Shown: in pieces, positions 17,652 to 36,224 of the stretch
How the letters are laid out: the number at the start of each line of letters is the position of its first letter
How positions within the stretch are numbered: the stretch's first letter is position 1
NCBI RefSeq assembly: GCF_014764505.1
Contig: NZ_JACXWX010000005.1
Location: forward strand, 62,001 to 126,000
Length of the DNA: 64,000 bases
Direction of reading: 5' to 3'
Origin: Phormidium tenue FACHB-886
GTDB taxonomy: Bacteria > Cyanobacteriota > Cyanobacteriia > Elainellales > Elainellaceae
Position numbers and translations under genes: made by a program
Notes under the pieces: generated by a model
What the model was told of the DNA's origin: nothing
Databases searched by the model: none
What the model saw: only the letters and a program-made list of their open reading frames with translations

Positions 17652-18707
17652 CAGAAGATTTCTCATGATGAATCTTAAGCGGTTACTAAAGCTACGAACA
17701 GATGCTGATCTATTTTTTAAGATTGGTGCGAATGCTATAGATTTGGTGAATGAACTGCTGAACCAGCATTAAAGTTATTTTGCCCTGGGTATAGTGCTCC
17801 GCGCTTAGCTTGAAATCTTTTTGTGTAGAAGCTTTGCGTAGCAGAGCTTCTACACAAAAACTTGTCCTGATGCATACGGGCAGCGCTATAACTATCAAAG
17901 AATTTCTATGCTTCACCCGAGAATCCTAATAAATACCAGTCATGCTGCTGAGGCGTAACGCGGAAAACTGGTAGAGCTCGGCAATCGAGCGGCATTATTG
18001 TTTGTTTCTTCTACCATAAATGCAATTTTCACTCAATTTCCAGTATCATACATATACAAAATGGGTCTCTACCGCGCATTGCTAGCTTTGTACGTGAATT
18101 AAGATGAAAAGCCCGCTCTGTGAGCCTTTTCAGCCTGATTCGCAAGCAGATCAAGCAATGCTAGTTTCGACTGAGCCAGTTTCGACTGATATAATTCTGG
18201 TGATAGGTGCTAGTTCTTGCAGGTTGTGAAAGGGGCAGAGGGATTCCCAGTTGAATTTGGAGTGGATTGGCTAACCACTGGACCAGTTCGCACAGGGTGA
18301 AATGGCTACTACAATTGTTCCCTCACTGGGGTCACCTCCCCTCCTAGCCCAGTAGCAGTAGGCATTGCAGGGTAATCTATTACATGCTCACCAGGCAGAA
18401 TTAAGCCCATGAGAATCAACACCAGTACAAAATGACAGCTGGGCTGTACAGCCATACAATCGGCTGTGCAGGGCATGGGCAAAACGGGTGCATCTACGCT
18501 TGTCATCCTACTCTTATAAACTTAGAGCCAGTCTGCCCAAAGCGAATTCTGCAGCGAATTGGTTCGATTGCTTATAGGCGATTAGGTTTTCATGTAATTT
18601 TAGGCTCAATTTAGGAAAAGAACCTGCTGCTGTAGTAGCTGTCGTAAGGCTAAATCCATTAGTCAGAATCACGAGAAATCGCAAACATCATAATTCCTAC
18701 CTTATAC
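17652..18707. other. Long intergenic region
   Basis: About 1.05 kb with no supported gene. It contains one copy of the dispersed palindromic element (17791-17891). Two 60-65-residue frames near 18309-18614 have no family character. I see no tRNA, riboswitch or clear RNA gene, and the 5' region of the GGDEF gene may hold regulatory sites I cannot name. Confidence 0.5.
17791..17891. repeat. Dispersed palindromic element, copy A
   Basis: A ~100-bp element centred on a perfect 16-bp stem (TTTTTGTGTAGAAGCT at 17818-17833 with its complement at 17845-17860). Its flanks match those of copies at 34567-34667 and 36101-36203: one flank ends in a GCGCTATAA-like box and the other in a TAGTGCTCC-like box. 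Confidence 0.75.
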
Positions 18708-20900
18708 ATGGTTGCACACCAGGCAGAAGGATCAGTGACAAACGGGATGCTAGCACTGCTCAAAGAGAATGCCGAACTTCGGCAACAGCTTACTAAACGT
18801 CAGTATAGAGAGCAAGTGCTGCTAGAAACTAAGCAGCAGCTTCAACGCCTGCTAGCATTTAGCCCTGCAGTCATTTACAATAGCCGACCTGACGGCAACT
18901 ACGGCATTACCTACATTAGCGAGAGCATTAATCAGCTTGGCTATGAGCCGCAGGAATTTCTAAAAGATACTGGACTTTGGCAGCGAGCTGTTCATCCAGA
19001 AGATTTGCCGTATGTCTTGAATACACTGGCTCAGCTCATTCATCAGGAGTCTCAGGTTCTTGAGTATCGCTTCTTACATCAAAACGGGGGCTATCGCTGG
19101 CTACAAGACCAGCGTCGGCTGATTTGTGATGTACAGGGGCGACCGATCGAAATAGTCGGTGCTTGGCAAGATATCACCGAGCGCAAAGACATTGAGCTGG
19201 CATTATTTCAAGAAAAAGAGCTGGCACAAAACGTGTTGCAATCGTTGGGCGATGGTGTGATTACAACGGATATCGCTGGACGAATTCAATACGTCAATCC
19301 AGTTGCTGAACAGCTAACAGGGTGGCAAGCCAATCAAGCAATTGGCTCACCGCTTGCTGAGGTTTTTCAAACGCTTAATGAAGTCACACGTCAAACAGCT
19401 GAAAATTTAGTAGAAAAAGTCTGCAGTTCGGGCAAAGTTGTTGGGCTATCGCATCCAACGCTGCTGATTGCCCGTGATGAAGCCGAACATACCATTGACC
19501 ACTCAGCGGCCCCGATCCGCGATCGCCAAAACCGGATCATTGGGACAGTGATTGTCTTCCGGGATATGACACAGTACCACTCGCTGGCTCGCAAGCTGTC
19601 TTGGCAGGCAAGCCACGATTCCCTAACAGGGCTGGTGAATCGGCGTGAGTTTGAGCAGCAGCTTGCGGAAGCGATCATCAGCGTCCGTGAACAAGAGCAG
19701 CAGCATGTGCTTTGCTATCTGGATCTAGACCAGTTCAAATGGGTGAATGATACTTGTGGACATGTAGCAGGCGATGAACTACTGCGCCAGCTGGCCGCCT
19801 TGCTTCAGCAGCAGGTGCGGGCTGCCGATACCTTAGGACGTCTAGGGGGTGATGAATTTGGCATTCTGCTGCACCAGTGCAACCTCGACTCTGCCTGCCG
19901 GATTGCAGATGCCATCCTCAAAAAAATTCAGAGCTTTCGATTTGCTTGGCAAAATAACACCTTCACAATTGGGGTGAGTATTGGACTGGTTGCCATTGAT
20001 CTAGATAGCGGTGATCTTAACTCAGTGCTCAGTGCTGCTGATGCCGCCTGCTATGCCGCCAAAGATAAAGGACGGAACCAAGTCCATATTTACCAAACCG
20101 ACGATAGCGAGTTGGTCCGCCAGCGGGGTGAGCGGCAATGGGTGGCGCGCCTCTCCAATGCCCTTCAAGAAAATCGGTTTCAGCTGTATCGACAGGCGAT
20201 CGTGCCGCTGGGTCAGTCATGTGCAGATCGGGCGCAACATTGGGAGCTGCTGGTGCGGATGGTGTCAGAGCAGGGAGAGGTTGTGCCGCCCATGGCATTT
20301 ATTCCGGCTGCCGAGCGCTATGGCTTGATGGCTGCTGTCGATCGCTGGGTAATCAGCCGATTTTTTAGCAGCTATGCTGCCCTGAATCCTAGTTCCCAGC
20401 CTGATACGCAGCCTCTCCAAGATCAGTACGCGATTAATCTTTCAGGCGCTAGCCTTAATGATGACCAGTTTTTAGACTTTCTGCGGGAGCAGTTTGAGCG
20501 CCACGCTGTGCCTCCGCAGGCGATCTGCTTCGAAGTCACAGAAACGGCAGCGATCGCCAACCTTGCTAGAGCCGTTCCGCTGATTCGTGAACTGAAGCAA
20601 ATCGGCTGCTGCTTTGCACTAGATCACTTTGGTAGCGGCATGAGTTCGTTAGCCTATCTCAAAAATTTGCCGATCGATTACCTGAAAATAGATGGCTACT
20701 TCGTCAAAAACATCGTGAATGATGTGGTCGATCGGGCGATGGTGGAGTGCATCAACCGAATTGGACATGTAATGGGGCTGTATACGATCGCTGGCTTTGT
20801 TGAAAACGACGAAATTCTGGGCAAGCTGCGAGAGTTAGGAGTTGATTATGCCCAGGGCTATGGTATTGATGAGCCTGTTCCGCTCAATCTTGCGCCTTAA
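18708..20900 (+). CDS. PAS-PAS-GGDEF-EAL protein, EAL site degenerate
   Basis: A 730-residue signalling protein without membrane segments. A short coiled coil leads to a PAS/PAC domain (about 45-165, with GAWQDITERK), a second PAS (about 170-290, VFRDMTQYH), a GGDEF domain (about 300-450) and an EAL domain (about 475-725). The GGDEF motif is intact (RLGGDEFG, residues 378-385), so it should make cyclic-di-GMP. In the EAL domain E513 (ELLVR) and EVTETAAI are kept, but the metal-binding DDFG reads DHFG (H640) and the Glu of the AExVE motif is Gly696. Hydrolysis is therefore doubtful. PAS ligands are unknown. Confidence 0.9.
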   Translation: MVAHQAEGSVTNGMLALLKENAELRQQLTKRQYREQVLLETKQQLQRLLAFSPAVIYNSRPDGNYGITYISESINQLGYEPQEFLKDTGLWQRAVHPEDLPYVLNTLAQLIHQESQVLEYRFLHQNGGYRWLQDQRRLICDVQGRPIEIVGAWQDITERKDIELALFQEKELAQNVLQSLGDGVITTDIAGRIQYVNPVAEQLTGWQANQAIGSPLAEVFQTLNEVTRQTAENLVEKVCSSGKVVGLSHPTLLIARDEAEHTIDHSAAPIRDRQNRIIGTVIVFRDMTQYHSLARKLSWQASHDSLTGLVNRREFEQQLAEAIISVREQEQQHVLCYLDLDQFKWVNDTCGHVAGDELLRQLAALLQQQVRAADTLGRLGGDEFGILLHQCNLDSACRIADAILKKIQSFRFAWQNNTFTIGVSIGLVAIDLDSGDLNSVLSAADAACYAAKDKGRNQVHIYQTDDSELVRQRGERQWVARLSNALQENRFQLYRQAIVPLGQSCADRAQHWELLVRMVSEQGEVVPPMAFIPAAERYGLMAAVDRWVISRFFSSYAALNPSSQPDTQPLQDQYAINLSGASLNDDQFLDFLREQFERHAVPPQAICFEVTETAAIANLARAVPLIRELKQIGCCFALDHFGSGMSSLAYLKNLPIDYLKIDGYFVKNIVNDVVDRAMVECINRIGHVMGLYTIAGFVENDEILGKLRELGVDYAQGYGIDEPVPLNLAP

Positions 20901-21156
20901 ACGAGAATTGCCCGAAGAAACATAAGGCAGCGTTTCTTCAAGCAAGAAACAATTTTTTACAGAATCAATGCAAATTCTGATGCAAATGCAAATTGCTATA
21001 AAGCCTGAAATTCTCAATGATTGCAAGCTCTCAGGCGGATTGCAAACTTTTAGACTCCATTAATACTTGACATGCTCGAAGCTTCTGTGATCTTCCGGGA
21101 GAGTCCAGATTGGTGCTGTTAAAGTGTGAATACCCTGGATTGAAGGCAATCTTGCC

Positions 21157-22791
21157 ATGTTGATGCACAGAGTTAGATTGAGCTGGAGAATGCTGCCAAG
21201 CGTTTGGCAAGCGTTAATTATCGTGTGTTTGGTATTGGGGATCTTTTTTCGTTTTGTCCAGTTGGACAGCAAAGTTTATCAATACGATGAAACCTTCACG
21301 GCATTGCGGGTTTCTGGCTACACCGAAGCTGAAGTAGTTGAAGCTTTGACAGAAGCGCGTCTTGTTTCTGTTTCAGATATCCAGGACTTTCAGCGGCTTA
21401 ATACCGAGAAGCGTGGTGTGGATACTCTGAAGGGATTAGTGCGTGAAGAGCCCCAGCTAACGCCTTTATTTTTTGCATTAGAGCGGCTATGGGTACGCTG
21501 GTTTGAGACGTGGGGCAACGGCATTGTTGTAACCCGCAGCCTCTCGGCGATCCTTAGCCTACTAGCGTTTCCGGCGTTGGGATGGCTCTGCTGGGAGCTG
21601 TTTCAATCACCGTCGGTTGCTTGGCTGGCAGTCGCCCTCTATGCTGTTTCCCCCTTTCATGTGCTGTATGCGCAAGAGGCGCGACCTATCGAAGCTTGGG
21701 CAGTTGCCGTGTTGGCAATGGGTGCTACTCTGCTGTGGGCAATCCGGCGAAGAAGCGAATTGAGTTGGCTCCTCTATGCATTGTCGGTTGCAGTGAGCCT
21801 ATACACATTTCTGTTCTCGAGCTTTGTAGTTATGGCGCAGCTGGCATATGTAGCGACGCTCGAACAGCTTCAGCGCCAGCGCATAGTGGTAGCTCATTTA
21901 GCTGCCGTAGCGCTTGGGGTGATCATGTTTTCCCCCTGGTTTCTCAAACTTCTCCTAAATACTCAGCAGGTACAAGAAGTAACAAACTGGACAAATCAAG
22001 GAGGTCCATCGCTATTCACGTATGGAATCACGTGGATGCACAATCTAAGTTTGGGGTTTGTAGATGGTAACCTGTCATCGGCAACGCCGCTAGTTCTGAA
22101 GCTGGCACTGAGACTAATTGAGGTAGCCACTGTAGCCCTGATCGTCTATAGCTTTTATTTTATCTGGTCTAAAGAAAAACTAAACCGCTGGCTGTTTGTC
22201 GTCGCTTTGGCAGGTGTTCCGGCGTTATGCTTAATTATTCCTGATCTGGTTACTAATGGAATTCGATCGATTATTCCTCGCTATGCTGTTCCCTGCTATC
22301 TGGGAAGCCAGATTTCAGTTGCTTATTTGTTGACAAATAAGCTCAACGACGTTGCTCGACAGCGGTTTTGGTCCATAGTAACAGTGCTTGTACTCTCTGG
22401 GGGTGTGCTCTCTTGTGCCGCGATCTCTCAGGCAGATACCTGGTGGAATAAGATGATCGGCAGTGCTAATCCAGCGCTTGCCCAACAGATCAACCAAGCT
22501 GATCGTCCTCTGCTGATCAGCGATGCTGATATGGGCGATCTCTTCTCGCTTAGCTACTACCTCGATCCCAAAGTGCAGCTGCTGGTACGACCCCAGTGTT
22601 ACGCTTGCAACCTAAATCGAACGCTAGAGAATCGTCCTTACTTGCCCACCATTCCTAAGGGATTTAGCGATGTATTTGTGTTTCATCCTAGACCTTCGCT
22701 TGGCTGGATGGAAGCCTTGAAACAATCGCCATACCCGCTACAAGTGGTTTCAGAGGGGCACGATCGCTGGCTGTGGCGAGTCCAACGATAG
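21157..22791 (+). CDS. GT39/ArnT-like membrane glycosyltransferase
   Basis: A 544-residue protein with about eleven membrane segments. The first loop has QLDSKVYQYDETFTALR, with the acidic DE pair typical of GT-C enzymes of the PMT/ArnT type, and YAQEARPIEAWAV matches the conserved QEARPY-like motif. Such enzymes move a sugar from a polyprenyl phosphate donor to an acceptor on the outer face of the membrane. The acceptor is unknown. A short soluble domain ends the protein. The gene is monocistronic and ends at a palindromic hairpin. Confidence 0.8.
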   Translation: MLMHRVRLSWRMLPSVWQALIIVCLVLGIFFRFVQLDSKVYQYDETFTALRVSGYTEAEVVEALTEARLVSVSDIQDFQRLNTEKRGVDTLKGLVREEPQLTPLFFALERLWVRWFETWGNGIVVTRSLSAILSLLAFPALGWLCWELFQSPSVAWLAVALYAVSPFHVLYAQEARPIEAWAVAVLAMGATLLWAIRRRSELSWLLYALSVAVSLYTFLFSSFVVMAQLAYVATLEQLQRQRIVVAHLAAVALGVIMFSPWFLKLLLNTQQVQEVTNWTNQGGPSLFTYGITWMHNLSLGFVDGNLSSATPLVLKLALRLIEVATVALIVYSFYFIWSKEKLNRWLFVVALAGVPALCLIIPDLVTNGIRSIIPRYAVPCYLGSQISVAYLLTNKLNDVARQRFWSIVTVLVLSGGVLSCAAISQADTWWNKMIGSANPALAQQINQADRPLLISDADMGDLFSLSYYLDPKVQLLVRPQCYACNLNRTLENRPYLPTIPKGFSDVFVFHPRPSLGWMEALKQSPYPLQVVSEGHDRWLWRVQR

Positions 22792-22807
22792 CAGAAGAGG
22801 AACAACC

Positions 22808-22837
22808 TGGGGCGTGAAAGCTAGCTTTCGCGCCCCA
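22808..22837 (+). terminator. 15-bp palindromic hairpin
   Basis: The palindrome runs from TGGGGCGTGAAAGCT at 22808-22822 to its complement at 22823-22837, with one G-U pair and no separate loop. It starts 17 bp after the glycosyltransferase stop. Confidence 0.65.
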
Positions 22838-23003
22838 ATCGATTAGTAGTCTTTTCCAAAATAAAGAATGCCAGATCCTGGCGTGACTCATGCAAATTCT
22901 CTAGTCGGACTGCCTGAGGTGGAGGTATGATTAGCTTCGCCCACTCTACCTCCATAAAACACGTAAGTCCTGAATCAGCTTGAGGAGACCAAAGGAGAAA
23001 GCT

Positions 23004-23792
23004 ATGCGAAGCGCACAGACATCTTTGCAGCGCTGTGGCAGTTTGTCGATCGCCGCTTGGGGAATAAGTGCAATCATTCCGGCAGCAGTATCGTTTGTTG
23101 GTGCACCTGCCTATGCCGATATGGTGCGGGGCAGTGGCACTTTTGAATTGGCAGGGCGATCGCCTCAGCGGATCAGCAGCGTTACCTATGAATACGGCAG
23201 AGAATATAACCGGACTCTATTTCTCAATCTCAACGACGGACGACGCATACCCCTTCGGGGAGCGTTAGAAGAAGGCGATAGTGGCGTTTTCTTTGTGAAT
23301 GGGTCTGGTGATGCGGATGCCTCTGGTATTTTGCAGATGACCTTTTTCAACGGCAATCCAGACACCGTGACAGGCAGAGGACTCCTGGATGGACAACGGT
23401 TCACGGTAAGCTTCCGCCGCAGTTCAGATTCAAACGGCAGCAATTCGTCCCAGGTTCCAGCTCAAACAGAGCCATTAAACCTGCTTCAGCAAGGATCTGG
23501 AATTTACCAGGTGGGTGACCGCAGCACCGCTATTGTGCGAGCAAGTGTGGCAATCCGGGCAGACAGACGAGTCGAGCTTGCTTTTCGATTGGCAGACGAT
23601 CGGCTGCTGCGGCTCACCGGTGAACTAACCAGTCGCCTAGAGAATGCGATCGTTGTGCAGCTAACCAACGCAGGTAACGCAGATGCTAGCGGCACCGCCA
23701 ACATTTCACAGGGCGAAGGCAGTGCGATCAACAGCATCGTTATCGACGGCACAGTAGACAGACAGCCGCTGTTAGTGGATTTTTATCGTTAG
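23004..23792 (+). CDS. Secreted two-repeat hypothetical protein
   Basis: A 262-residue protein with an N-terminal signal peptide (AAWGISAIIPAAVSFVGAPA then YADM, cleavage likely near AYA-D). The mature part has two related halves: GSGTFELAG...VFFVNGSGDADASGILQMTF and GSGIYQVGD...VVQLTNAGNADASGTANI, so it arose by internal duplication. A Ser/Asn-rich linker joins them. The periplasmic role is unknown. The start at 23004 follows AAAGGAGA; the longer frame begins with TTG at 22980. Confidence 0.75.
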   Translation: MRSAQTSLQRCGSLSIAAWGISAIIPAAVSFVGAPAYADMVRGSGTFELAGRSPQRISSVTYEYGREYNRTLFLNLNDGRRIPLRGALEEGDSGVFFVNGSGDADASGILQMTFFNGNPDTVTGRGLLDGQRFTVSFRRSSDSNGSNSSQVPAQTEPLNLLQQGSGIYQVGDRSTAIVRASVAIRADRRVELAFRLADDRLLRLTGELTSRLENAIVVQLTNAGNADASGTANISQGEGSAINSIVIDGTVDRQPLLVDFYR

Positions 23793-23842
23793 CTTGGCGC
23801 TGGTAATGCTTCAGGTCGGGGTAATCAGGCATTGCTTAACAG

Positions 23843-23901
23843 GGGAATGATTTTTGAGTGAGAGGGGCGCTCCGCGCCCCTCTCACTCAAAAATCATTCC
23901 C
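23843..23901 (+). terminator. Perfect 28-bp inverted repeat
   Basis: The arms at 23843-23870 and 23874-23901 are exact complements with a 3-nt loop. The stem carries GAGAGGGGCGC near the loop and A/T-rich TTTTTGAGTG further out. It lies 50 bp after the secreted protein gene. Its length exceeds a normal terminator, so an extra role is possible. Confidence 0.75.
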
Positions 23902-24027
23902 GAAATCAGTAACACCAATAAGCGATAGTCGCGGATTGACGATTATCCCTATTCCCACCTATTCCCTTCAGTTCCGAAAACGGCTAGCGGCTTTGAAGAA
24001 GCCTCTCTATTGTGAATGTAGAGCGCA

Positions 24028-25527
24028 ATGCTCTCAATGCCGCTATCTTCTGACCTTATGCCGCCCACGCTTGACCCCACCCCCTACTATCGGGCGATCC
24101 AAACCAAAGATGCTCGATTTGATGGGCAATTCTTTGTGGCAGTGCGGAGTACAGGTATCTACTGCCGTCCGGTTTGCCCTGCAACGACACCGAAGCCAGA
24201 AAACTGCACGTTTTACCCCAGCGCTGCGGCTGCCCAGCAGGCAGGGTTTCGTCCCTGTTTGCGCTGCCGTCCGGAGCTAGCGCCTCATTTGTTTGCCTTT
24301 GTGGGAACCGCCAGCACGGTTTCGCGAGCGCTGCGGCTGATTGCAGACGGTGCCTTAGATACTGGCTCCGTTGAGGCATTGGCAGCTCGGCTGGGTATTA
24401 GCGATCGCCATCTGCGGCAGCTATTTGCTAAACACCTGGGAACTTCTCCGGTGGCAATTGCTCAAACGCGGCGATTGCAATTTGCTAAGCAGCTGATTGA
24501 CGAAACACCGCTTTCTATGACGGATATTGCGATCGCGGCAGGATTTGCTAGCATTCGTCGCTTTAATGATGCCGTGCGGCAAACCTACGGACGTTCGCCT
24601 TCTGAGTTGCGAAGACACACTGCCCCCATCCCAGAAACTAACCTCACCATCACCCTTAAGCTCTCTTTCAGCCCGCCTTACGATTGGGCAGCAATGATGC
24701 GCTTTCTGATGCCGCGAGCTACTCCAGGATTGGAGGCAGCAGGCTTAGATAGCTATCGACGGGCGATCGCAATTGACGGCGATCAGGGCGTAGTCGAGGT
24801 GCGTCCTGTTGTAGGGAAAAATCACCTGATTGCTAACATTTGTTTTCCCAAGCTGGCGCACTTAGGGCAGATCGTGGAGCGCTTGCGCCGAATGTTTGAT
24901 CTGGGTGCAAATGCAACAGAAATTGCAGCTCACTTCCAGACAGATCCAGTGTTGAGGGAAATTGTACAGCGGCAGCCCGGACTGCGAATTCCAGGTGCGT
25001 GGGAGCCATTTGAGCTAGCGGTGCGGGCAATTTTGGGGCAGCAGGTCAGCGTCAGCGCTGCGACTACCCTGGCAGGGCGCTTGGTGAGTGCCTATGGAGA
25101 GCCGCTAACGGTAGGCACTGCGAAGGCATCCCTGCTACAGGCTGTGTTTCCGCGCCCAGAGCAGCTAGCTGATGCAGATTTATCGGTCTTGGGCATCCCC
25201 AGGGGACGGGCGAAGGCGATCGTTGCCCTTGCTGCCGTAGTTGCCGAAAATCCGCAGTTCTTCACCCAGTTTCACAGCCTAGAAGAAACTATTCAGACCC
25301 TTTGTCGGCTTCCGGGTATTGGCGAGTGGACAGCTCACTATATTGCACTGCGTGCCTTGAGGGAACCTGATGCTTTTCCTACCAGTGATTTGGGCTTGCT
25401 GCGAGCCATGGCGGCGCTCGGATACACCGTTACCAAAGCAGAACTTGCAGATTATGCTGACGCTTGGCGACCGTGGCGAGCGTATGCTGCTATGCATCTG
25501 TGGTCGATGGGCAACCAGAAGCAGTAG
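24028..25527 (+). CDS. Ada-AlkA fusion DNA glycosylase
   Basis: A 499-residue alkylation-repair protein. Residues about 15-90 form the Ada zinc domain with four Cys (GIYCRPVC, ENCTF, LRCRPE): in Ada, a Cys here takes methyl groups from DNA phosphotriesters. An AraC-type helix-turn-helix follows (about 105-200), then the AlkA N-terminal domain and the HhH-GPD glycosylase (about 320-499; ILGQQVSVSAATTLAGRLV; LCRLPGIGEWTAHYIALRAL). The catalytic Asp lies in AFPTSDLGLLRA. It should remove 3-methyladenine and sense alkylation. The methyltransferase gene follows 68 bp later. The ATG at 24058 is an alternative start. Confidence 0.92.
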   Translation: MLSMPLSSDLMPPTLDPTPYYRAIQTKDARFDGQFFVAVRSTGIYCRPVCPATTPKPENCTFYPSAAAAQQAGFRPCLRCRPELAPHLFAFVGTASTVSRALRLIADGALDTGSVEALAARLGISDRHLRQLFAKHLGTSPVAIAQTRRLQFAKQLIDETPLSMTDIAIAAGFASIRRFNDAVRQTYGRSPSELRRHTAPIPETNLTITLKLSFSPPYDWAAMMRFLMPRATPGLEAAGLDSYRRAIAIDGDQGVVEVRPVVGKNHLIANICFPKLAHLGQIVERLRRMFDLGANATEIAAHFQTDPVLREIVQRQPGLRIPGAWEPFELAVRAILGQQVSVSAATTLAGRLVSAYGEPLTVGTAKASLLQAVFPRPEQLADADLSVLGIPRGRAKAIVALAAVVAENPQFFTQFHSLEETIQTLCRLPGIGEWTAHYIALRALREPDAFPTSDLGLLRAMAALGYTVTKAELADYADAWRPWRAYAAMHLWSMGNQKQ

Positions 25528-25595
25528 GCAATCAGCAGCAGGCGATCGGCAGAAAGGGCAGCTGATGTTTAGAATAGTATCCCTCTACATTTCCT

Positions 25596-26096
25596 ATGAA
25601 AGAACTTTCGATTGATAAATTTGATTCTCCAGTAGGTGAAATTTCGTTAGTTTTTGAAGTTGAAACACTGTGCGCTTTGGATTTTCAAGACTATGAAGCA
25701 CGGATGCTCAAGCTGCTGCAAAAGCGCTATGGCACGGTGCATCTGGTGCCACAGCGTCGCTCCGAGATGCGTGATCGGCTGACTGCCTATCTAGCTGGAG
25801 ATTTTACCAGCCTAGATAGTGTCTCTGTCTCGACGGGCGGCACATTATTTCAGCAGCAGGTTTGGCAGGCGTTGCGCTTCATCCCGGCAGGCACTGTGCT
25901 GACCTATCGAGAGCTGGCGCTGCGCGTGGGTAAACCCACTGCCTGTCGAGCAGTTGGCATGGCAAACTCGCTCAATCCCGTGTCGATCGTCTTGCCCTGC
26001 CACCGAGTGATTGGGGCAAATGCGTCCCTAACTGGCTATGCGGGTGGTCTAGAGCGCAAGCGTTGGCTGCTTCAGCATGAAGGAGTGCACTTGTAA
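25596..26096 (+). CDS. ogt: Methylated-DNA--protein-cysteine methyltransferase
   Basis: A 166-residue protein. The active-site signature IVLPCHRVIGANASLTGYAG (about residues 128-147) includes the acceptor Cys, and the DNA-binding helix LTYRELALRVGKPTACRAVG precedes it. It transfers the methyl group from O6-methylguanine to itself. Together with the upstream Ada-AlkA fusion it forms a compact alkylation-repair unit, in which the sensor half of classical Ada is fused to the glycosylase and the methyltransferase half is a separate protein. Confidence 0.93.
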   Translation: MKELSIDKFDSPVGEISLVFEVETLCALDFQDYEARMLKLLQKRYGTVHLVPQRRSEMRDRLTAYLAGDFTSLDSVSVSTGGTLFQQQVWQALRFIPAGTVLTYRELALRVGKPTACRAVGMANSLNPVSIVLPCHRVIGANASLTGYAGGLERKRWLLQHEGVHL

Positions 26097-26118
26097 GATA
26101 CAGCTCTGCGCTGAAGCG

Positions 26119-26158
26119 ACTTACTTTTGAAGGCTATGCGTAGCTTTCGGAAATAAGT
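26119..26158. terminator. Long imperfect hairpin after ogt
   Basis: The sequence 26119-26136 pairs with 26141-26158 at 17 of 18 positions counting G-U pairs, with a TGCG loop. It lies 23 bp after the ogt stop and just before the EamA gene, so it probably separates the two transcripts. Confidence 0.6.
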
Positions 26159-27117: not shown

Positions 27118-27125
27118 AGCCGATT

Positions 27126-27626: not shown

Positions 27627-27719
27627 AGCAGCTAAATAAGTCAACCTCTAAACTGTTATAAAATTAACATTTTTTAATGTCAGTTCAATATCCTGCAGCA
27701 CTCCAAACAGAAGCGTACA

Positions 27720-27757: not shown

Positions 27758-27800
27758 GAAGTAATTAACGCAAAACTGCAAAACTGAACTTTATACAACA

Positions 27801-28868
27801 TCACACAGTATGTTGATTGGCTGCTTGCAAGAGATATTCCTCGTATTTGGTTTGAAGCGTTGCGTCTTCAAAAACCAGCTTAACTTTAGGAGTGTGGTTT
27901 CCAGTTTGGCGAGGTACCGCCGCTAAAATCTGCTGGGCAAAGTCAGCAGAGACAAATCTGTTGCGTTCGATCGAATCCAATGCAGTTTGCGCTGCGGTTG
28001 CCAGTTCGGCTTCTGAAGCCTGCGTGGAGATATCTACTACTGCTATCTGCTTCGGTTCTGGGCTAACTTGCTCAATAATTAACTTTTCGCGGCGAACTGG
28101 AACCTGGATCATTCGCGTTTCGATCGCTTTGCGAACAGTAATCTCACCCACTTTGCGTCTTAGCCGATTGACAACAAGACGCTCTTCCAACAGTTGAATC
28201 GTTTCTTCTGCCACGGTCGATGCCACTGGCTGTGATGCAAGTGGCTGTGATGTAAGTGACTGTGATGCCATTGGCTGTGATGTAAGTGGCTGGACTACTT
28301 CGGGAACTGGCTGGAGGCTCGTCTTTGTTTCGACAAGTGGGTGCTCCTGACGATGGGCTGGGACAGAAATAGATCGGGTTGTCCCAAGGGTTGTCTCAGA
28401 AATCCAAGCTGAACCCAGCGGTGCAGAGGTTTCTAGTTGCGCAGAGGCTTCTACAGGAAGCATCGTTTGTGGAATTGCTTGGGAACTAGCGGAATGAACA
28501 GCGGGTTCTACCCTAGTGCCAGTCGGCTTTGTCGCTCGATGCAAAGACGGGTCATACGTGGAGCGATGATTGATTTCGTCTTTAGTGAGATTAATTAAAT
28601 TAACTCGCTGAGTTGCTCGATCGATACGGAATTCTTCTGGCTCGACTAGAACCAGCTTCCGGCTCAACCATGAACCAATATCTATAACAATGTAATAGAG
28701 CTGCCCAATATCATTCATCAAAATATCTGCAACTTTTCCAACGCGTTCCTCGTTGTTTGCCCAGACGTCGAAGCGAATGATATCTGAAAATTCATATGCA
28801 TGGCGACTCTGTGGGTCAGAATCGCTGATTCGAAAAAGATCCATAGGTTCTATATTAGATCGCTTCAT
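27801..28868 (-). CDS. PRC-barrel and DUF2382 protein (1)
   Basis: A protein of about 355 residues. The N-terminal PRC-barrel (about 18-85; RVGKVADILMNDIGQLYYIV) is followed by a long Ser/Gln/Thr-rich linker with a five-residue repeat (variants of LTSQP and MASQS), then a DUF2382 domain (about 225-300; ERLVVNRLRRKVGEITVRKA). DUF2382 proteins are linked to stress responses in several bacteria. It is a diverged paralogue of the next gene at 29077. The frame extends to 28913; starts at 28874 or 28868 are near the PRC-barrel as in the paralogue. Confidence 0.8.
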   Translation of the reverse strand: MKRSNIEPMDLFRISDSDPQSRHAYEFSDIIRFDVWANNEERVGKVADILMNDIGQLYYIVIDIGSWLSRKLVLVEPEEFRIDRATQRVNLINLTKDEINHRSTYDPSLHRATKPTGTRVEPAVHSASSQAIPQTMLPVEASAQLETSAPLGSAWISETTLGTTRSISVPAHRQEHPLVETKTSLQPVPEVVQPLTSQPMASQSLTSQPLASQPVASTVAEETIQLLEERLVVNRLRRKVGEITVRKAIETRMIQVPVRREKLIIEQVSPEPKQIAVVDISTQASEAELATAAQTALDSIERNRFVSADFAQQILAAVPRQTGNHTPKVKLVFEDATLQTKYEEYLLQAANQHTV

Positions 28869-28967
28869 GTTCATAATAGTTTTGCGGGGTTTATCAAAAG
28901 CGAACTGCCACATAGTTCAGACTGCTGGTTGCGTCCATCCCATGTGGCATGATATATGTTCCAGGTG

Positions 28968-29006
28968 TAGCCTCTAGATAGGGCAACCTGTCCTATCTAG
29001 AGGCTA
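28968..29006 (-). terminator. 15-bp hairpin between the two PRC-barrel genes
   Basis: The arms tagcctctagatagg (28968-28982) and its exact complement (28992-29006) surround a 9-nt loop. It lies 70 bp after the stop of the gene at 29077, so the two paralogues are probably transcribed separately. Confidence 0.75.
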
Positions 29007-29076
29007 AGATTTTGCAGGATCGCAATCAATGCAGCGCTAATATCCGCTATCGCACTACAAGACTACAGCCTGCAGT

Positions 29077-30024
29077 TTAGCTCCGCACGTTAGGGTTGCC
29101 GCTCTTATCAATGTCAAGGCGCTCTTTACGAATCGTCTCATCTGCCTCGACGGTATCGCGATCGACTTCCTTGCGGACTCGGACTTCCTCACGTACAAAC
29201 GCTTCTTTGTGGATGTCCGGTGTTTCTTCGTAAATTTCCATCCGAGCCACTTCGCCCTCTTGGAAGGCATCACCGGTTCCTACAACAGCTGTCGTATCCG
29301 TAGAATCGACGCGCTCAATCACCACGCGCTCTTTCTCAACGGGCACGGAAACGTGGACTGTCTCAGTCTCTACACGCTTACCAACCGTTACTTCACCAGT
29401 CTTGACGCGGGTTTTGTTAGCGATCAGCCGCTCTTCATAGAGTTTCAGGTTTTGGTGATCGCGCTCGTTGATGTCGAACAAAGCGGCGTCATGGTCATAC
29501 TTGTAGGTGTCACGGTTGTAATTGGTTACCCGATTACCCGCTAGGGCACCTTGATTCGTCGCGGTGCTCCGGTCAGCAAGAGGTGCAGAAGCATCCAGTG
29601 GGCTTGCTGCTTCCAGAGGTGCTACAGGTGCAATTGGATCTGCAGTCGTGGCAGTCGCGGCAGTCGTGTTTGCCACATTGGGACGGTAAACGCCACGAAC
29701 ACGCTCTTCGTAGTCGTAGTCTACCGTAGAACCATCGTACTCGGGCAGGTTCTCGACTTGTTCACGAGTCAGACCACTCACACGTACACGTCGATCGTTA
29801 TAGTCGATCTGCGTCCGTCCGATTGGCAGAAGTACTTTCTTACCAAAAATCCATGCGCCTGTATTCACGATCAGGTAACGGAACCGACCTTCATCGTCCA
29901 CTAGTAGATCGTCAACAGATCCAATCTTATCTTCGCCGGCGTAAAGACTATAGCCAATAATGTCCTGATTATCTAGCTGATCACGGTAGTCAGGATAGAA
30001 ATCCTTAATTTTGTGCAATGCCAT
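29077..30024 (-). CDS. PRC-barrel and DUF2382 protein (2)
   Basis: A 315-residue protein with an N-terminal PRC-barrel (about 20-95; DKIGSVDDLLVDDEGRFRYL), an Ala/Thr-rich linker, and a DUF2382 domain (about 185-300; ERLIANKTRVKTGEVTVGKR; EKERVVIERVDSTD). The C-terminal part alternates Glu and Arg (EEVRVRKEVDRDTVEADETI), giving a highly charged strand pattern. It shares domain order with the neighbour at 27801. GAGGG seven bases upstream of the ATG at 30024 fixes the start. Function is unknown; a stress role is inferred from family and context. Confidence 0.85.
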   Translation of the reverse strand: MALHKIKDFYPDYRDQLDNQDIIGYSLYAGEDKIGSVDDLLVDDEGRFRYLIVNTGAWIFGKKVLLPIGRTQIDYNDRRVRVSGLTREQVENLPEYDGSTVDYDYEERVRGVYRPNVANTTAATATTADPIAPVAPLEAASPLDASAPLADRSTATNQGALAGNRVTNYNRDTYKYDHDAALFDINERDHQNLKLYEERLIANKTRVKTGEVTVGKRVETETVHVSVPVEKERVVIERVDSTDTTAVVGTGDAFQEGEVARMEIYEETPDIHKEAFVREEVRVRKEVDRDTVEADETIRKERLDIDKSGNPNVRS

Positions 30025-30505
30025 CTGGTTATCCCTCAATTCACTTCAATGAATTCAGTTACCAAGTTAAACCTTTGTCAGCAATATTCCCTCCCTCTGC
30101 TGAACTAGATGAGGATGCGTCTTTGTATTCAATAGGGGGATTTCAAAAGCAAATCTTTTACAAATTCTCTGCAACATTAGATAGAGGCTTGGGTACTTCT
30201 AAAGGTATACGCATAAAGGAAGAAAGGGTATGTAAAAGGCGGATGTTTCTTTGAATACAATTTACCTTTATTCCAAGCTTATTCTTTTGACAGACGTAGC
30301 TTAAAATACTCTGCCTCTACAGTACAGGTGAATGATCTGCTCATGCTTTGTGCCATGACCTGGTACTGGGCTTAAACCATGAAAGCCAAAATTTAGCGCT
30401 GAAGTGAAGAGCGATTGCTAATCGACAGCTTCAACTGTAGCAATCTGTTCTAATCCGGTTTAACCCGGCTCTTGGTGCTCTTTGAAAATTGAGAGGAAGA
30501 ACAAA
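30025..30505. other. Divergent promoter region
   Basis: About 480 bp between the minus-strand PRC-barrel gene and the plus-strand SRPBCC gene. It is AT-rich near 30100-30300 and holds no supported frame. It should contain promoters for both directions, but I could not name sites. Confidence 0.45.
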
Positions 30506-31030
30506 ATGGAGCAAATGCAAAATAAAACTAGCTCATCCCAGTCCCCAGCCTCAGGCAAAGGTATCCGGGTTCAGAAAACTGTCACGATCGACAAACCTGC
30601 TGAAACGCTGTATCAATTTTGGCGCAACTTTGAAAACCTACCGACTTTCATGCGTCACCTCAAGTCTGTAAATATCATCAACGATACTCGCTCACATTGG
30701 GTTGCCGATGCTCCTTTGGGTCAGCATGTCGAATGGGATGCAGACATTACCAATGACCAGCCGAATCAAGCGATCGCTTGGACTGCTACTGCAAATGCAG
30801 ATGTCGATCATACGGGTTCTGTGGAATTTCGACCGGCTCCCGCAGGACGTGGAACTGAAGTTAGGGTAGTGATGGACTACACGCCGCCCGGTGGCATTAT
30901 TGGGGCTGCCCTGGCAAAACTTGTTGGCAAAGCGCCAGAACAGCAAATTGGCGATGAGCTTGCTCGCTTCAAAATGCTAATGGAAGCAGGCGAGATCGCT
31001 ACTACAGATGGACAGCCTAAAGGAGGCTAA
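30506..31030 (+). CDS. SRPBCC family protein (cyclase/dehydrase type)
   Basis: A 174-residue protein with a START-like SRPBCC fold: VQKTVTIDKPAETLYQFWRN opens the domain, followed by NLPTFMRHLKSV, HVEWDADITNDQPNQAIAW and GTEVRVVMDYTPPGGIIG, and a C-terminal helix. The family binds hydrophobic ligands; no ligand is known here. GAGAGGAAG upstream places the start at 30506, not the TTG at 30482. It is followed 111 bp later by an alcohol dehydrogenase gene, an association I recall from other cyanobacteria and soil bacteria. Confidence 0.85.
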   Translation: MEQMQNKTSSSQSPASGKGIRVQKTVTIDKPAETLYQFWRNFENLPTFMRHLKSVNIINDTRSHWVADAPLGQHVEWDADITNDQPNQAIAWTATANADVDHTGSVEFRPAPAGRGTEVRVVMDYTPPGGIIGAALAKLVGKAPEQQIGDELARFKMLMEAGEIATTDGQPKGG

Positions 31031-31141
31031 TAATACTCTAAAGTCTCTAAAGTAACACTCAGAAAATACGGTTAAGCCACCATTCCTGAGATGCATAAGG
31101 CTATTAAATTTATACACAACTTCTAGCACGGAGAATAAAGC

Positions 31142-32320
31142 ATGAGAGCTGTATGCTGGCATGGCGCGATGGATATGAGAGTGGATACGGTACCCGATCC
31201 AACTATTCTTAATCCACAAGACGCCATTATTAAGATTACTTCTACTGCCATCTGCGGCTCTGATCTGCATATTTATGATGGCTTCATTCCCACGATGCAA
31301 GCAGGCGACATCATGGGACATGAATTTATGGGTGAAGTCGTTGAAGTTGGCAGTTCTGTCAGAAAACTGAAGAAGGGCGATCGCGTCGTGGTTCCTTTCC
31401 CGATCTCCTGCGGTCATTGCTTCTTCTGCCAGCGAGATTTATGGTCACTCTGCGATAACTCTAATCCAAATGCCCCGATGGCAGAAAAGCTGTACGGTCA
31501 TTCTCCGGCGGCGCTGTTTGGCTATTCTCATCTGTTGGGTGGCTATGCGGGCGGGCAAGCTGAGTACGCGCGAGTTCCCTTCGCCGATGTGGGACCTATC
31601 AAAATTCCCGATGGCTTAACCGATGACCAAGTGCTGTTCCTCAGCGATATTTTACCCACTGGCTACATGGCAGCCGAGAACTGCAACATCCAACCTGGAG
31701 ACACAGTTGCTGTTTGGGGCTGCGGACCTGTGGGGCAGTTTGCCATTAAGAGTGCGTTTCTGCTAGGTGCAGAGCGGGTCATAGCCATCGATCGCATCCC
31801 AGAACGGCTACAGATGGCGCGGAAATATAATCCCTTGGTGGATTTGATTAACTACGAAGAGGTGGAAACGGGTGAAGCTCTCAAAGAAATGACGGGTGGA
31901 CGTGGACCTGATGCCTGTATCGATGCTGTGGGACTAGAAGCGCACGGCATGGGCTTGGAAGGATTTTACGACAAGGTGATGCAGTCAGTCCGGCTGGAAA
32001 CTGATCGCCCCAATGTGCTGCGACAAGCAATTGTTGCTTGCCGTAAGGGCGGAACTGTTTCGTTAGCAGGTGTATACGGCGGCATCATCGACAAAGTACC
32101 CATGGGTGCAGCATTCAATAAAGGATTGACCTTTAAGATGGGTCAAACTCATACCCAAAAGTATCTTCGTCCGCTGCTCGAACGGATTCAGGCAGGCGAA
32201 ATTGATGCCACCTTCGTCATTAGCCATCGCCTACCGCTTGAAGATGCACCTAATGCCTACGACATGTTTAAGCATAAGAAAGATAACTGTACCAAAGTAG
32301 TTCTCAAACCTGCATCCTAA
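31142..32320 (+). CDS. Zinc-dependent alcohol dehydrogenase, formaldehyde-dehydrogenase-like
   Basis: A 392-residue medium-chain dehydrogenase. The catalytic zinc ligands appear as CGSDLH (about residue 38) and GHEF (about 59); the structural-zinc Cys series is [15 protein letters not shown] (about 89-103). The NAD site is [17 protein letters not shown] (about 188-204). Length and the extra [14 protein letters not shown] loop resemble glutathione-independent formaldehyde dehydrogenases. The substrate is not certain. A gene for a secreted protein starts 13 bp after the stop with its own AAGGAGG site, so they are probably co-transcribed. Confidence 0.9.
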
Positions 32321-32333
32321 AAGGAGGAAGATT

Positions 32334-32834
32334 ATGAATTTTTCAAAGTCTTGGAAGTCTTATTTCCAGCGCTTTACTTCGCTGTTGCTGTGTTTGGGGC
32401 TGATGGCTTCTGTGGCGCTGAGCAACAGTGCAGCGGCTTTGGCCGCCTCTAACACAACTGCTGGTCAGGGTGAAGTGGTGATGCCTGAGTGGTATCCTGA
32501 TGACCACCGTGACATCGATACAATGATTGAGGAAGCGGGTGTCAAGCGGGAAGGATCTAACGATGTCAGTGCCGATAAAATTGGCCTAGACAGAAACACC
32601 AACGCTAACAACAGCGATAATCCTAACCTGCTCGATCGCGCTCAGCAACGGATTAAAGAGGTGGCTGGTGATGTTCAAACGAAGCTCGAATCTAATCCTG
32701 TTGAGAATGCCAGAGCTGCAGTAGAAGGCATCCGCGATCGGGAAGGACACCTGATTGAAAGCGCGAAAGGCTCCGTCGGTAAAAAAGCCGAACGATTGCT
32801 AGAAGACGGCACTCCGGTTTACACTCGCCGCTAA
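32334..32834 (+). CDS. Secreted hypothetical protein
   Basis: A 166-residue protein with a signal peptide (FTSLLLCLGLMASVALSNSA, then AALAAS). The mature protein is hydrophilic and helical: RAQQRIKEVAGDVQTKLESN, then an Ala/Glu helix and a basic C-terminus. The amphipathic repeats recall stress-related periplasmic or lumen proteins, but I do not recognise a family. It follows the alcohol dehydrogenase by 13 bp with a near-perfect ribosome site. Confidence 0.75.
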   Translation: MNFSKSWKSYFQRFTSLLLCLGLMASVALSNSAAALAASNTTAGQGEVVMPEWYPDDHRDIDTMIEEAGVKREGSNDVSADKIGLDRNTNANNSDNPNLLDRAQQRIKEVAGDVQTKLESNPVENARAAVEGIRDREGHLIESAKGSVGKKAERLLEDGTPVYTRR

Positions 32835-32915
32835 ATCAAAACTGCAAATCACAGGAGCTGTATCTTTAAGGTGCAGCTTCTATTTGTTTAAACTATTGAA
32901 ACTACAGCAATCGCA

Positions 32916-33548
32916 ATGACATACCCTCAACCCCCTTGGACACTGCAAGGTTATGGGCTGCAAACAGTTCAACTCATTGATATCGATTCCATTCGCTCAC
33001 AAATTCCGCCGCAGCTCAACATCGTTCCTGTGTTGCCCGGTAAAACTGCTGGCGGAATCTATGCTGCAGCTTATGGCACTGGCTCTACGCTGCTGTACAA
33101 CGAGCTGATTGTAGCGGCAGCTTTGGTACAGCATGCCGGACGAATTGGGGCTTGGATCTCTCACATCTACGTTGATAATGCTGATTCAGTTGCTGGCGGA
33201 CGCGAAATTTGGGGATTACCTAAAGAAAATGCTCAGTTTAGCTGGGAGATGGGCGATCGTCCTTCTGTACAGGTGCGCCAAGGGGAGCAATTGCTATGCC
33301 ACTTGAGTCGGCAGTGGGCGGTCCCAGGCTGGCAGCAAGCTTTTACGGTGCCTGTGTTCAGTTTGCTGAATCAGCAGTTGATTCAGTTCAATGGGCAAAC
33401 TGACTTTAAGTTTTATCTTGCCGGGGTAGAGGTGCAGATTCCGTCAGGTAGCCCGTTAGCACAGTTGAAGATGGCTCCACCCTGGCTTAATTTCTATTTC
33501 AATCCACTGCAGTTGGTAGCAGAAGCACCGTACTTTGTAAAACAGTGA
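32916..33548 (+). CDS. Acetoacetate-decarboxylase-like protein
   Basis: A 210-residue protein of the acetoacetate decarboxylase superfamily. GGREIWGLPKENAQFSW (about residues 102-118) aligns with the motif holding the Schiff-base Lys of the clostridial enzyme. That Lys is kept, but the next residue, a Lys that lowers its pKa in the true decarboxylase, is Glu here. Decarboxylase activity is thus doubtful; related proteins are hydratase-aldolases or of unknown role. A hairpin follows the gene. Confidence 0.8.
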   Translation: MTYPQPPWTLQGYGLQTVQLIDIDSIRSQIPPQLNIVPVLPGKTAGGIYAAAYGTGSTLLYNELIVAAALVQHAGRIGAWISHIYVDNADSVAGGREIWGLPKENAQFSWEMGDRPSVQVRQGEQLLCHLSRQWAVPGWQQAFTVPVFSLLNQQLIQFNGQTDFKFYLAGVEVQIPSGSPLAQLKMAPPWLNFYFNPLQLVAEAPYFVKQ

Positions 33549-33578
33549 TCGGACCACATTCTCAATCGCGCCTAAACG

Positions 33579-33613
33579 TAATAGCGCACCGTGCAAAACA
33601 TGGTGCGCTATTA
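33579..33613 (+). terminator. Terminator-like hairpin
   Basis: The arms taatagcgcacc (33579-33590) and its exact complement (33602-33613) pair, with a few further pairs inward. It lies 30 bp after the stop of the plus-strand gene and before the convergent small gene at 33656. Confidence 0.7.
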
Positions 33614-33655
33614 ACATCACTAAATCAACCTCACTAAAAAGTGAGTAAGGCGAGC

Positions 33656-33892
33656 TTACATTCTGCCTTTTTGCATTACTTCTTGCAGATGGTGCCGGAC
33701 TTCTTGAGCCTGTTCTAACTCTGCCTGCTGCAATTTCTGGATGAGCTCTACACAGGGCTGGGAGTTAGCATTCTGTGCATCTTTCAGGTATGTGTTGTAA
33801 AGCTGAACGGCTTCTGCTTTGTTCTTCAGAATAGCCACTAGATCAAATTCTAGATCGCTAATTGCTTGTGTGTTGCTGTTTGTTGCTACCAT
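33656..33892 (-). CDS. Small helical hypothetical protein
   Basis: A 78-residue protein predicted to be all helical: LEFDLVAILKNKAEAVQLYN and a C-terminal Gln/Glu-rich helix (QKLQQAELEQAQEVRHHLQE) with a His pair. It recalls small helical-hairpin proteins in cyanobacteria, yet I cannot name a family. GGAG upstream fixes the start at 33892; the longer frame to 33958 lacks support. Confidence 0.65.
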   Translation of the reverse strand: MVATNSNTQAISDLEFDLVAILKNKAEAVQLYNTYLKDAQNANSQPCVELIQKLQQAELEQAQEVRHHLQEVMQKGRM

Positions 33893-33999
33893 ACAAATTC
33901 TCCAGTCGAACTTCGGGCTACTCTGAAGATCTTGACGATTGTTGAGCGGCATCACCATCGCTCGAAATGTGGATCATGAAATGTCTTGATCAATACATT

Positions 34000-34491
34000 T
34001 CAACTTTGAAACCAAGCGGTTAGCGCCAGCGCCAGCCCATCAGCCGCATCATCAGGCTTCGGTGGCTTTTCCAAATTTAGCTCTCTCGCTACGGCTTGCT
34101 GGACATCCTGCTTTCCGGCATTGCCATGCCCCGTCAAGGCTTGTTTCACTTGGGCAGGGGTAAACTCCACCACTGGAACTTTGTACTGCGCCAGCACCAG
34201 CATCACTACGCCCCGTGCCTGCGCCACCGCAATCGTATTGCCCATCTTATAGAAAAACAGCTTCTCGATCGCCACCAAATCTGGCTGCACCTGCGCCAGC
34301 AGGCTGTGCAGGTCATCGTAGATGATGCAGAGGCGATCGCGCGTTTCTATCTTCGCGGGCGTTTGGATCACCCCAAAATCTAGCGTTGCGACGGCTTGCG
34401 GCTGCTCGCGCCCGTGTGCAGCTCGACACAGCACCGCCCCAAAACCCAGGATGGCAAGTCCGGGATCTAGACCAAGGATGCGTTTCTCCAT
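34000..34491 (-). CDS. ruvC: Holliday junction resolvase RuvC
   Basis: A 163-residue endonuclease of the usual length. It cuts Holliday junctions made by RuvAB. The four acidic catalytic residues are visible: Asp in LGLDPGLAI, Glu in VAIEKLFF, and the Asp pair in [25 protein letters not shown] is also typical. No other ruv gene is near. The gene ends 107 bp before the minus-strand small gene start and seems to be monocistronic. Confidence 0.95.
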
Positions 34492-34566
34492 GAGTAGCGC
34501 TAAAGATAAAGGGCTGAGCTAAGTGTACTCTAGATGTACTATTCTGCAACCCTAATATCCAGAACT

Positions 34567-34667
34567 TTATAGCGCTACATACCTATACCAGAACAGTTTC
34601 TTTGTGTAGAAGCCCCATCTAGCAAGACTTCTACACAAAAAAGATCTCAATCTAAGCACAGAGCGCC
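34567..34667. repeat. Dispersed palindromic element, copy B
   Basis: A ~100-bp element with a central 12-bp stem (TTTGTGTAGAAG at 34601-34612 with its complement at 34628-34639). The left flank TTATAGCGCTACAT and the right flank GATCTCAATCTAAGCACAGA correspond to those of copy A read in the opposite direction. It lies between chlI and ruvC. Confidence 0.75.
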
Positions 34668-34720
34668 ATCATTGCAATTAATGAAATTTTTCTCGCAATC
34701 GACTACATCCAGCAGCTACC

Positions 34721-34748
34721 CAGCCCCGCCAGAGGACGACTGGGGCTG
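34721..34748 (-). terminator. Short hairpin after chlI
   Basis: cagcccc (34721-34727) and ggggctg (34742-34748) pair around a 14-nt loop. It lies about 40 bp past the chlI stop on the minus strand. The stem is short, so this is tentative. Confidence 0.4.
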
Positions 34749-34785
34749 AGTAAAAGTCCTATTGACTTGCTTACCTCTGCAAAGG

Positions 34786-35889
34786 CTAGCTTTTACCGTT
34801 TTGGCTAACTTCCTGCCCCGCATCGACAATGCCAAACACCTGATTGAAAACCTTCCCCACCTTGTACCCAGAATCGATCGACTCCAACGGGTCTTTCCGC
34901 AGCCGGTGCCGCAACGCCATCACCATGACCTGTTTGATATCTTCCACGGTGACCTCTGTGCGGCCGTCTAGCGCAGCAAGGGCTTTGGCGGTGCGGTTGG
35001 TAACGATATCGCCGCGCAGCCCGTCTACGTCTAGCTCTGAGCAAACCTGAGAAATTTTGATTTTCAGATCGCGATCGATTGTCACTGACTTCAGCCGTTC
35101 CTGTGCGCTAACCAACCGCTGCTGCAGTTCTTCCTGCTGAGGACGGCACTGTTCTAGAAAGGCTTCTGGGTCTTGGTCAAACTGCGATCGCTGCTCCACG
35201 ATCTCAACGCGCAACGTCGGATCTTTAACCGTCCGGATTTCGGCATGCAATCCAAAGCGATCGAGCAGCTGCGGACGCAGTTCGCCTTCTTCTGGGTTAC
35301 CAGAACCAACCAGCACAAAGCGTGCCGGATGGCGAATCGAAATGCCTTCCCGCTCTACCGTGTTCCAGCCTGACGCGGCAGAATCTAGCAGTACATCTAC
35401 CAAGTGATCGTCTAGCAGGTTTACTTCATCCACGTAAAGGATGCCGCGATTTGCCTGCGCCAGCAGCCCCGGTTCAAACGCCTTCACGCCTTCCGACAGG
35501 GCCTTTTCAATGTCAATTGTGCCGCACACCCGATCTTCCGTTGCGCCCAGCGGCAGGTCGATCATCGGCACTTTTTTGGTAGTTGCCTCAATTGGCTCAC
35601 CCGCCTCAAACTGCTGTTTCACTGGATCGCTCATCAGACCCACATCGCTGGGGTGGCTGTTGAATGGATCGCCTACCGCAACCTCAATTTCGGGCAGCAC
35701 ATCTGCCAAGGCACGAATTGTCGTAGATTTGCCTGTGCCACGATCCCCCATGATCATCACCCCGCCAATTTTGGGGTCGATCACGTTTAGCAATAGCGCA
35801 AGCTTCATTTCTTCTTGACCCACAATCGCCGTGAACGGGAACACCGCGCGGCGAGCAGCAACTTTGGGAGCGGCAACCGTAAGACTCAT
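34786..35889 (-). CDS. chlI: Magnesium chelatase subunit I
   Basis: A 367-residue AAA+ ATPase that drives insertion of Mg into protoporphyrin IX with ChlD and ChlH, the first dedicated step of chlorophyll synthesis. The Walker A motif [15 protein letters not shown] (about residues 48-62), the Walker B region [20 protein letters not shown] (about 145-164) and the sensor region [21 protein letters not shown] are all intact. ChlD and ChlH are not in the window. The gene is monocistronic. Confidence 0.97.
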
Positions 35890-36224
35890 TTAAACCTGAA
35901 ATGCTAAGAAAATATTAATGACCGTTCTTTATTGTGACACGAAAGCGGAGCTGGATCAGAAGTCAGAAGAAAGGTCGAAATTTAGCGCTTTGCACTCAAA
36001 TGCAGACAGGTTTTGTTGAATGCCGTGTGGAGGGCAGCGCACAGCAAAATCTGCTCTTCAAAATATCTAGAACACTGGCTAGAGCAATGGCTAGCAAGCT
36101 GGTATAGGCTACGCGCATACGTTTAGGACAAACCTTTTTGTGTAAAAGTCCTGCTGCGCGGAGCTTCTACACAAAAAGAACTTTAATCCAGGCGTGTAGC
36201 GCCACAGTTAGCGATCGCAGCGGC
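35890..36224. other. Intergenic region with one palindromic element
   Basis: About 335 bp between chlI and the PotD-like gene. It holds copy C of the dispersed element (36101-36203), which may also act as a terminator for the PotD-like gene. Nothing else was recognised. Confidence 0.5.
36101..36203. repeat. Dispersed palindromic element, copy C
   Basis: A ~100-bp element with a central stem that pairs 36134-36149 with 36163-36178 (one mismatch). The left flank reads GGACAAAC and CGCATAC and the right flank ends GGCGTGTAGCGCC. Both match parts of copies A and B. Confidence 0.75.

Follow-up and report, generated by a model that had tools for sequence, protein, structure and literature searches.

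Palindromic elements in the window

The window, which here means the whole stretch of DNA analysed, comprises 64,000 nucleotides of contig NZ_JACXWX010000005.1 from Phormidium tenue FACHB-886. It contains three full-length copies of a non-coding element of about 100 bp, which carries terminal inverted repeats of about 15 bp (TATRGCGCTMCGCGC) and a central palindrome. The bounds of the copies were read by hand and include the flanking dinucleotide on each side.

17790..17890, + strand: copy 1, full length, TA at both ends; sets the + orientation; older cluster 6
17818..17860, no strand: central palindrome of copy 1, 20-base arms and 3-base loop
34568..34670, - strand: copy 2, full length, right-hand dinucleotide now TC; alone at the clustering cut-off
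34601..34641, no strand: central palindrome of copy 2
36103..36206, - strand: copy 3, full length, right-hand dinucleotide now CA; cluster 5
36135..36175, no strand: central palindrome of copy 3
39781..39837, - strand: weak half copy, E = 9.7e-5 in the window with the 69-copy profile, model positions 2-66
44975..45008, - strand: possible remnant, E = 0.64, without folding excess

A search of the 8.93-Mb host genome with copy 1 recovers copy 2 (E = 2.1e-8) and copy 3 (E = 6e-9), and a profile of 69 copies, the three window copies themselves being among its members, matches copies 1, 2, and 3 in the window at E = 1.7e-25, 1.5e-22, and 3e-26, respectively. One consensus base is missing from the left end of copy 3. 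Single-strand folding compared with dinucleotide shuffles gives z values of -4.48, -3.66, and -2.49 for copies 1, 2, and 3, with 0, 0, and 4 out of 200 shuffles folding as well. The E-values and the folding bear out the three dispersed copies proposed in the first-pass annotation, the bounds of which are correct to about 3 bases, and none of the three (0/3) lies inside a called gene, in agreement with the intergenic position given there. The fragment that it placed at 44978-45040 did not hold up, with E = 0.64 in the window and a folding z of -0.22 against shuffles; the remnant at 44975-45008 may be a decayed copy and is indistinguishable from chance. The half copy at 39781-39837, which like the size of the family had gone unnoticed, has a short GC-rich hairpin with A and T runs on its flanks and lies between the convergent genes 38949-39761 (+) and 39849-41702 (-). 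Rfam 15 gave no match within the window at the gathering score, and the element had no match in the plasmid collection.

The window holds other repeats as well. A 17-bp tandem repeat of three units (AATCYCAGAGGCTTTGT type) is found at 44739-44792, about 180 bp before the doubtful fragment. The 59-bp near-perfect palindrome at 23843-23901 is of a kind other than the element; in the host DNA examined, BLAST finds relatives of it at six other loci (L099, L006, L125, L122, L198, and L115), and it represents a second dispersed hairpin family. A 300-nt stretch occurs twice, at 57849-58148 and 58296-58595, with 84% identity, and covers the minus-strand open reading frames (ORFs) 57809-58150 and 58289-58597, which are neighbouring duplicated genes.

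Family size, anatomy, and distribution

In the host genome, the search with copy 1 yields at least 57 matches (40 of 75 candidates scored), and a covariance model built from 27 aligned copies yields at least 150, being the best 150 of 2481 candidates. Because many palindromes were matched on both strands, these 150 matches correspond to at least 117 distinct full-length places on 45 contigs. A pattern of the leftmost 28 bases that tolerates 3 mismatches finds 79 places, against 0 for the reversed control, and 22 of the 79 lie outside the 117 and are further left ends; the 117 and 22 places together are a lower bound. Clustering of 69 aligned copies places 43 in one large cluster, which contains several near-identical subfamilies, 13 in an older cluster, and the remaining 13 as singletons or pairs. 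Of the window copies, copy 1 belongs to the older cluster and copy 3 to the large one, with copy 2 standing alone.

Read from the outside inward, the consensus is composed of TA, the left end TRGCGCTMCGCGC, an arm some 14 bases long, and the palindrome, in which two arms of some 20 bases enclose a short loop, followed by a differing arm (TTGTCCTGACGTATGC type), the right end GCGTAGCGCTA, and TA. The arms are unequal, and the element therefore has an orientation.

Among 36 genomes sampled from the order of the host, including the host itself and all belonging to one family, at least 11 have matches at E <= 1e-6, and the element is found in at least 6 of 21 genera, that of the host included (best 110 candidates per genome scored). 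A search of 40 genomes, again including the host, gives 9 with matches at E <= 0.001. In the genome G013 alone, the right-end pattern occurs 159 times, against none for its reversed control. The intact-end pattern finds 22 stretches in the named species collection, from six cyanobacterial genomes by title; of the 13 that were inspected, four (L243, L244, L247, and L252) have the ends without such a palindrome. In the relative G021, other hairpin-bearing repeats lie beside copies of the element at loci L151 and L154, one of which has ends like those of the element (TATGGCG...GCGCTATAA) and a different palindrome.

Target site and empty sites

The host copy L117:16886-16988 sits in the remnant of a transposase gene, and the paralogues at L183, a DDE_Tnp_IS240 gene according to Pfam, and L160 are without the copy. 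The empty site at L160 reads TTGTC-TA-CTGTGATCACTCG, and the filled site at L117 reads TTGTC-TA-element-TA-CATTGATAACTCG. The search for paralogous junctions of 85 copies returned eight junction-spanning rows, of which two, from one site, are informative; the row L106/L191 is compatible with an empty site, yet unclean, and the remaining five match an element end, either its own or that of a neighbour, and are uninformative.

For orthologous sites, the flanks of three G041 copies and two G048 copies were compared with G049, G017, G012, G042, and G043. A clean empty site was found for L277 of G041, where GTTG-TA-element-TA-CTG stands against GTTG-TC-CTG in G043. The junction aligns at 82% identity with a single dinucleotide left, and its reading of TC for TA is a change to be expected at this identity. 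L270 is filled in both G048 and G049, and the insertion therefore predates their split; the element is absent and the spacer diverged for L269 in G017, L278 in G043, and L283 in G012. The flanks of five G021 copies gave one half-flank match only in G003, these genomes being too divergent. A copy in G013 interrupts a broken DDE_3 gene, the frame of which, read by hand, is continuous only with one TA kept. TA flanks both sides in 31 of 43 copies with clear ends under a strict pattern, the 43 being drawn from the 85 copies with both ends in the model. Insertion of the element duplicates TA, as seen at two clean empty sites, one paralogous and one orthologous.

Conservation of the palindrome

Among 103 elements drawn from several genomes, 78 pair at 16 or more of the 20 palindrome positions, compared with a median of 10 and a maximum of 14 in shuffled elements. 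Within the 78, the outer positions 8-20 are paired in 92-100% by several pair types; position 15, for example, is G-C in 35, T-A in 24, and A-T in 19, with no mismatch. As these 78 had been selected for pairing, the analysis was repeated on 71 copies found by the left end only. In this set, 16 or more of the 20 positions are paired in 42 copies and 13-15 in another 15, of which at least three pair elsewhere and represent a 55-bp form; the other 14 copies fall below 13. In the 57 copies with at least 13 paired positions, position 15 is paired in 95% (A-T 23, G-C 20, T-A 10, and C-G 1).

Compensated double changes number 60 in the large cluster against 21.9 +- 3.2 in shuffles, which ignore descent, so that the 60 partly counts single changes repeatedly; the old cluster has 8 against 5.4 +- 1.7. 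Across genera, the palindrome diverges widely in sequence while its pairing is kept by compensatory changes and the ends remain alike. We read this as an intact palindrome in the founders of subfamilies and decay in resident copies. Selection for the hairpin may keep the pairing, and so may template switching that corrects it.

Twelve copies of 66-75 bp are without the inner stem, as slippage between CTTTT or AAAAG arm repeats would give. The hairpin-less form of 55 bp (TA to TA) is present at three loci, which share one junction:

L188:4969-5017, hairpin-less 55-bp form
L190:4698-4746, hairpin-less 55-bp form
L205:5280-5329, hairpin-less 55-bp form

Independent identical deletions are a possible origin of these three copies. 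Their shared junction suggests that the 55-bp form has itself moved, in line with the mini-transposons of ISY100 described below. Since three loci share this one form, the palindrome is probably dispensable for movement, that is, not required for it.

Genomic placement

With the elements masked, a position relative to genes was obtained for 83 of 85 copies: tandem gaps hold 44, convergent gaps 29, and divergent gaps 10, compared with 163, 32, and 85 among 280 element-free gaps of at least 100 bases, a cut-off that favours the element side, as the element lengthens its own gap. With simple ORF calls, the convergent excess has P = 2.9e-6 and the divergent deficit P = 6e-4; with ORFs of at least 120 aa instead, the values are 2.1e-6 and 0.015. 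By length, convergent gaps take up 8690 of 93279 gap bases. The unmasked ORF calls make four of 83 copies genic, three of them on ORFs that overlap the element nearly whole, and the masked calls, which are blind to gene-breaking insertions, make none of 83 genic; the term intergenic here covers broken genes such as the L117 transposase.

The first-pass annotation had allowed for a second use of the copies as terminators, and terminating transcription or stabilising 3' ends might by now be the main role of the element, one that could coexist with mobility. Such a role would account for the share of convergent gaps (29/83 against 32/280), for the 32 of 44 copies in tandem gaps that lie closer to the end of the upstream gene, and for the GC-rich inner stem with its compensatory pairing. 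However, the scan, which covered the three window copies, flagged no terminator-like site (a stem with a T-rich tract behind it) in any of them, and their T tracts are short. Copies shorter than 95 bp show the same bias (8/16 convergent), compensation in the old cluster scarcely exceeds the shuffles, and RUP and IS elements of the pneumococcus are likewise described as enriched between convergent genes, in the portion of the source available (PMC3049150). We therefore consider a present terminator function unlikely. The same bias in short copies and in the pneumococcal RUP and IS elements argues for placement by tolerance. Survival outside intact genes, with convergent gaps favoured above all, fits selection against harmful insertions.

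Relation to IS630 elements

The host transposase belongs to IS630 according to Pfam and NCBIfam, and DDE_3 (PF13358) has 32 matches in the host genome. Thirty IS630-type loci of the host were examined, of which 11 have a clear end of the TATAGC-N-CTAC kind, only L158 at both sides, and the others have no such end or weak matches. Some IS630 ends are out of sight, because contigs break off within the IS, as the host contigs C133, C147, C88, and C228 do, among others; such breaks would be expected if similar copies of recent origin had disrupted the assembly. The host showed no single IS630 copy that was intact. There, as in G008, the transposase occupies two separate frames beside a run of A (L181:1079-1441 and 1480-1665; L209:1133-1474 and 1498-1992), a sequence arrangement that suggests programmed frameshifting.

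Six element types, three from the host and three from relatives, were compared as representatives with the IS630 ends. The right end agrees with four host IS630 right ends at 20-24 of 28 bases, and the match takes in the inner TAGGACA box. The left end agrees at only 12-20 of 28 bases, and 30 shuffled 28-mers reach a best match of 17-21 anywhere in 510 kb, so that the link to IS630 rests on the right end. In relatives, such an end is present at all 21 examined loci with a transposase identity of at least 52% and at none of nine with at most 39%. In Argonema antarcticum, an element with identical 15-bp ends shows, on inspection by eye, an interior similar to the 3' end of IS630, and is a plausible intermediate.

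Element and partner co-occur patchily. Seven family members besides the host carry the element in the 40-genome search, and only three of these (G012, G015, and G017) belong to the nine genomes with an IS630 match of at least 70% identity; conversely, G008, where IS630 has six strong matches, gives none for the element. G013 and G003 are rich in element copies, but the IS630 query finds no match there at the threshold used. Their weaker DDE_3 matches, three in G013 and one in G003, have no such ends, apart from the inserted copy of the element itself. Loss of the partner and degenerate old copies could explain this pattern, and since partners can be lost, their absence from copy-rich hosts is not strictly defining.

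We conclude that the element is very probably a non-autonomous mini-transposon (MITE) of the IS630/Tc1-mariner kind, with ends recognised by an IS630-family transposase encoded elsewhere. The non-autonomous mobile element suggested by the first-pass annotation, which proposed other genomic copies and empty sites in relatives as tests, passed both, and is upheld by the copies at 117 or more dispersed places, the terminal inverted repeats, the TA duplication at empty sites, including the orthologous one of L277 (G041 against G043), and the presence of IS630 with like ends.

It is rather improbable, slightly more so than a terminator function, that a different, unseen DDE transposase moves a TA-target MITE whose likeness to IS630 ends is convergent or older than both. 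The inconsistent co-occurrence with IS630, the weak left-end match, and G013 with its 159 right-end matches and no partner bearing such ends would fit this explanation, but the extent of the right-end match with its inner box, the duplication of TA, which is the hallmark of IS630, and the Argonema element with its IS630-like interior speak against it. The REP-like nature proposed in the first-pass annotation, if taken to mean a REP/REPIN-type element moved by a Y1 (RAYT) transposase, would explain dispersed intergenic palindromes, some of them side by side, and the letters GTAG within the ends, but was rejected as extremely improbable, as PF01797 (Y1/RAYT transposase) has no match in the copy-rich genomes G013 and G003, and terminal inverted repeats and TA duplication are foreign to REP elements.

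For the IS630-type MITE, a transposase of the IS630 family acting in trans would excise the element, presumably by the cut-and-paste chemistry known for the relative ISY100, and the excised element would be inserted at TA with duplication of the TA. Resident copies would then decay with age, new subfamilies would be founded by copies with an intact palindrome, and copies would persist outside intact genes, above all between convergent ones. The palindrome would be kept because copies with a hairpin spread or persist better, for example if read-through transcription is kept off the element.

We tentatively consider a two-part transposon, in which an IS630-type shell surrounds a palindrome that is free in sequence and kept paired since the hairpin aids spread. 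The hairpin might then act as RNA, as a cruciform, or as a single-strand hairpin, with its structure as the selected cargo. It could, for example, insulate the element from transcription or couple transposition to replication.

Comparison with known elements

The closest known analogue is RUP of Streptococcus pneumoniae, an element that uses TA as its target. As far as it is described in the text available, it is like our element in size, kind of ends, and placement. RUP is described there as about 107 bp long, without coding capacity, with terminal inverted repeats like those of IS630-Spn1 and 110 copies per genome (PMC3049150). It differs in belonging to another phylum and in having another sequence, the resemblance being one of description and not of compared sequences. 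A central palindrome kept by compensatory change across genera, as in our element, is not mentioned for RUP in the passages available (PMC3049150).

ISY100 of Synechocystis PCC 6803 is described as an IS630/Tc1-mariner element with a duplicated TA target, that needs no more than short ends in cis, as mini-transposons keeping 30 bp from either end are functional (PMC2170065). In contrast to our element, it is described as autonomous, with 947 bp and a single-frame transposase, and the likeness is again one of description rather than of compared ends. Nezha (Zhou 2008) is reportedly a MITE of cyanobacteria and in this respect resembles the element. SPRITE of S. pneumoniae is a short repeat with a long duplex, also described as enriched between convergent genes, but, unlike our element, it is reported in the available passages to carry a U-rich tract and to end in AAAA/TTTT, and a target duplication is not established for it (PMC3049150).

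Judged by titles, abstract openings, and passages, searches of the open PMC library turned up no paper on the family. We file the element as a new IS630-type MITE family, RUP having been compared by description and Nezha by name only; within this known kind of element, its hairpin is unusually well kept. More than 100 palindromic sites in the host, and many more across six genera of one cyanobacterial family, are thereby recognised as one MITE family, which parallels in a cyanobacterium what RUP is in the pneumococcus. Because the ends stay alike while the hairpin diverges with compensation, the family provides a natural experiment on the function of MITE hairpins.
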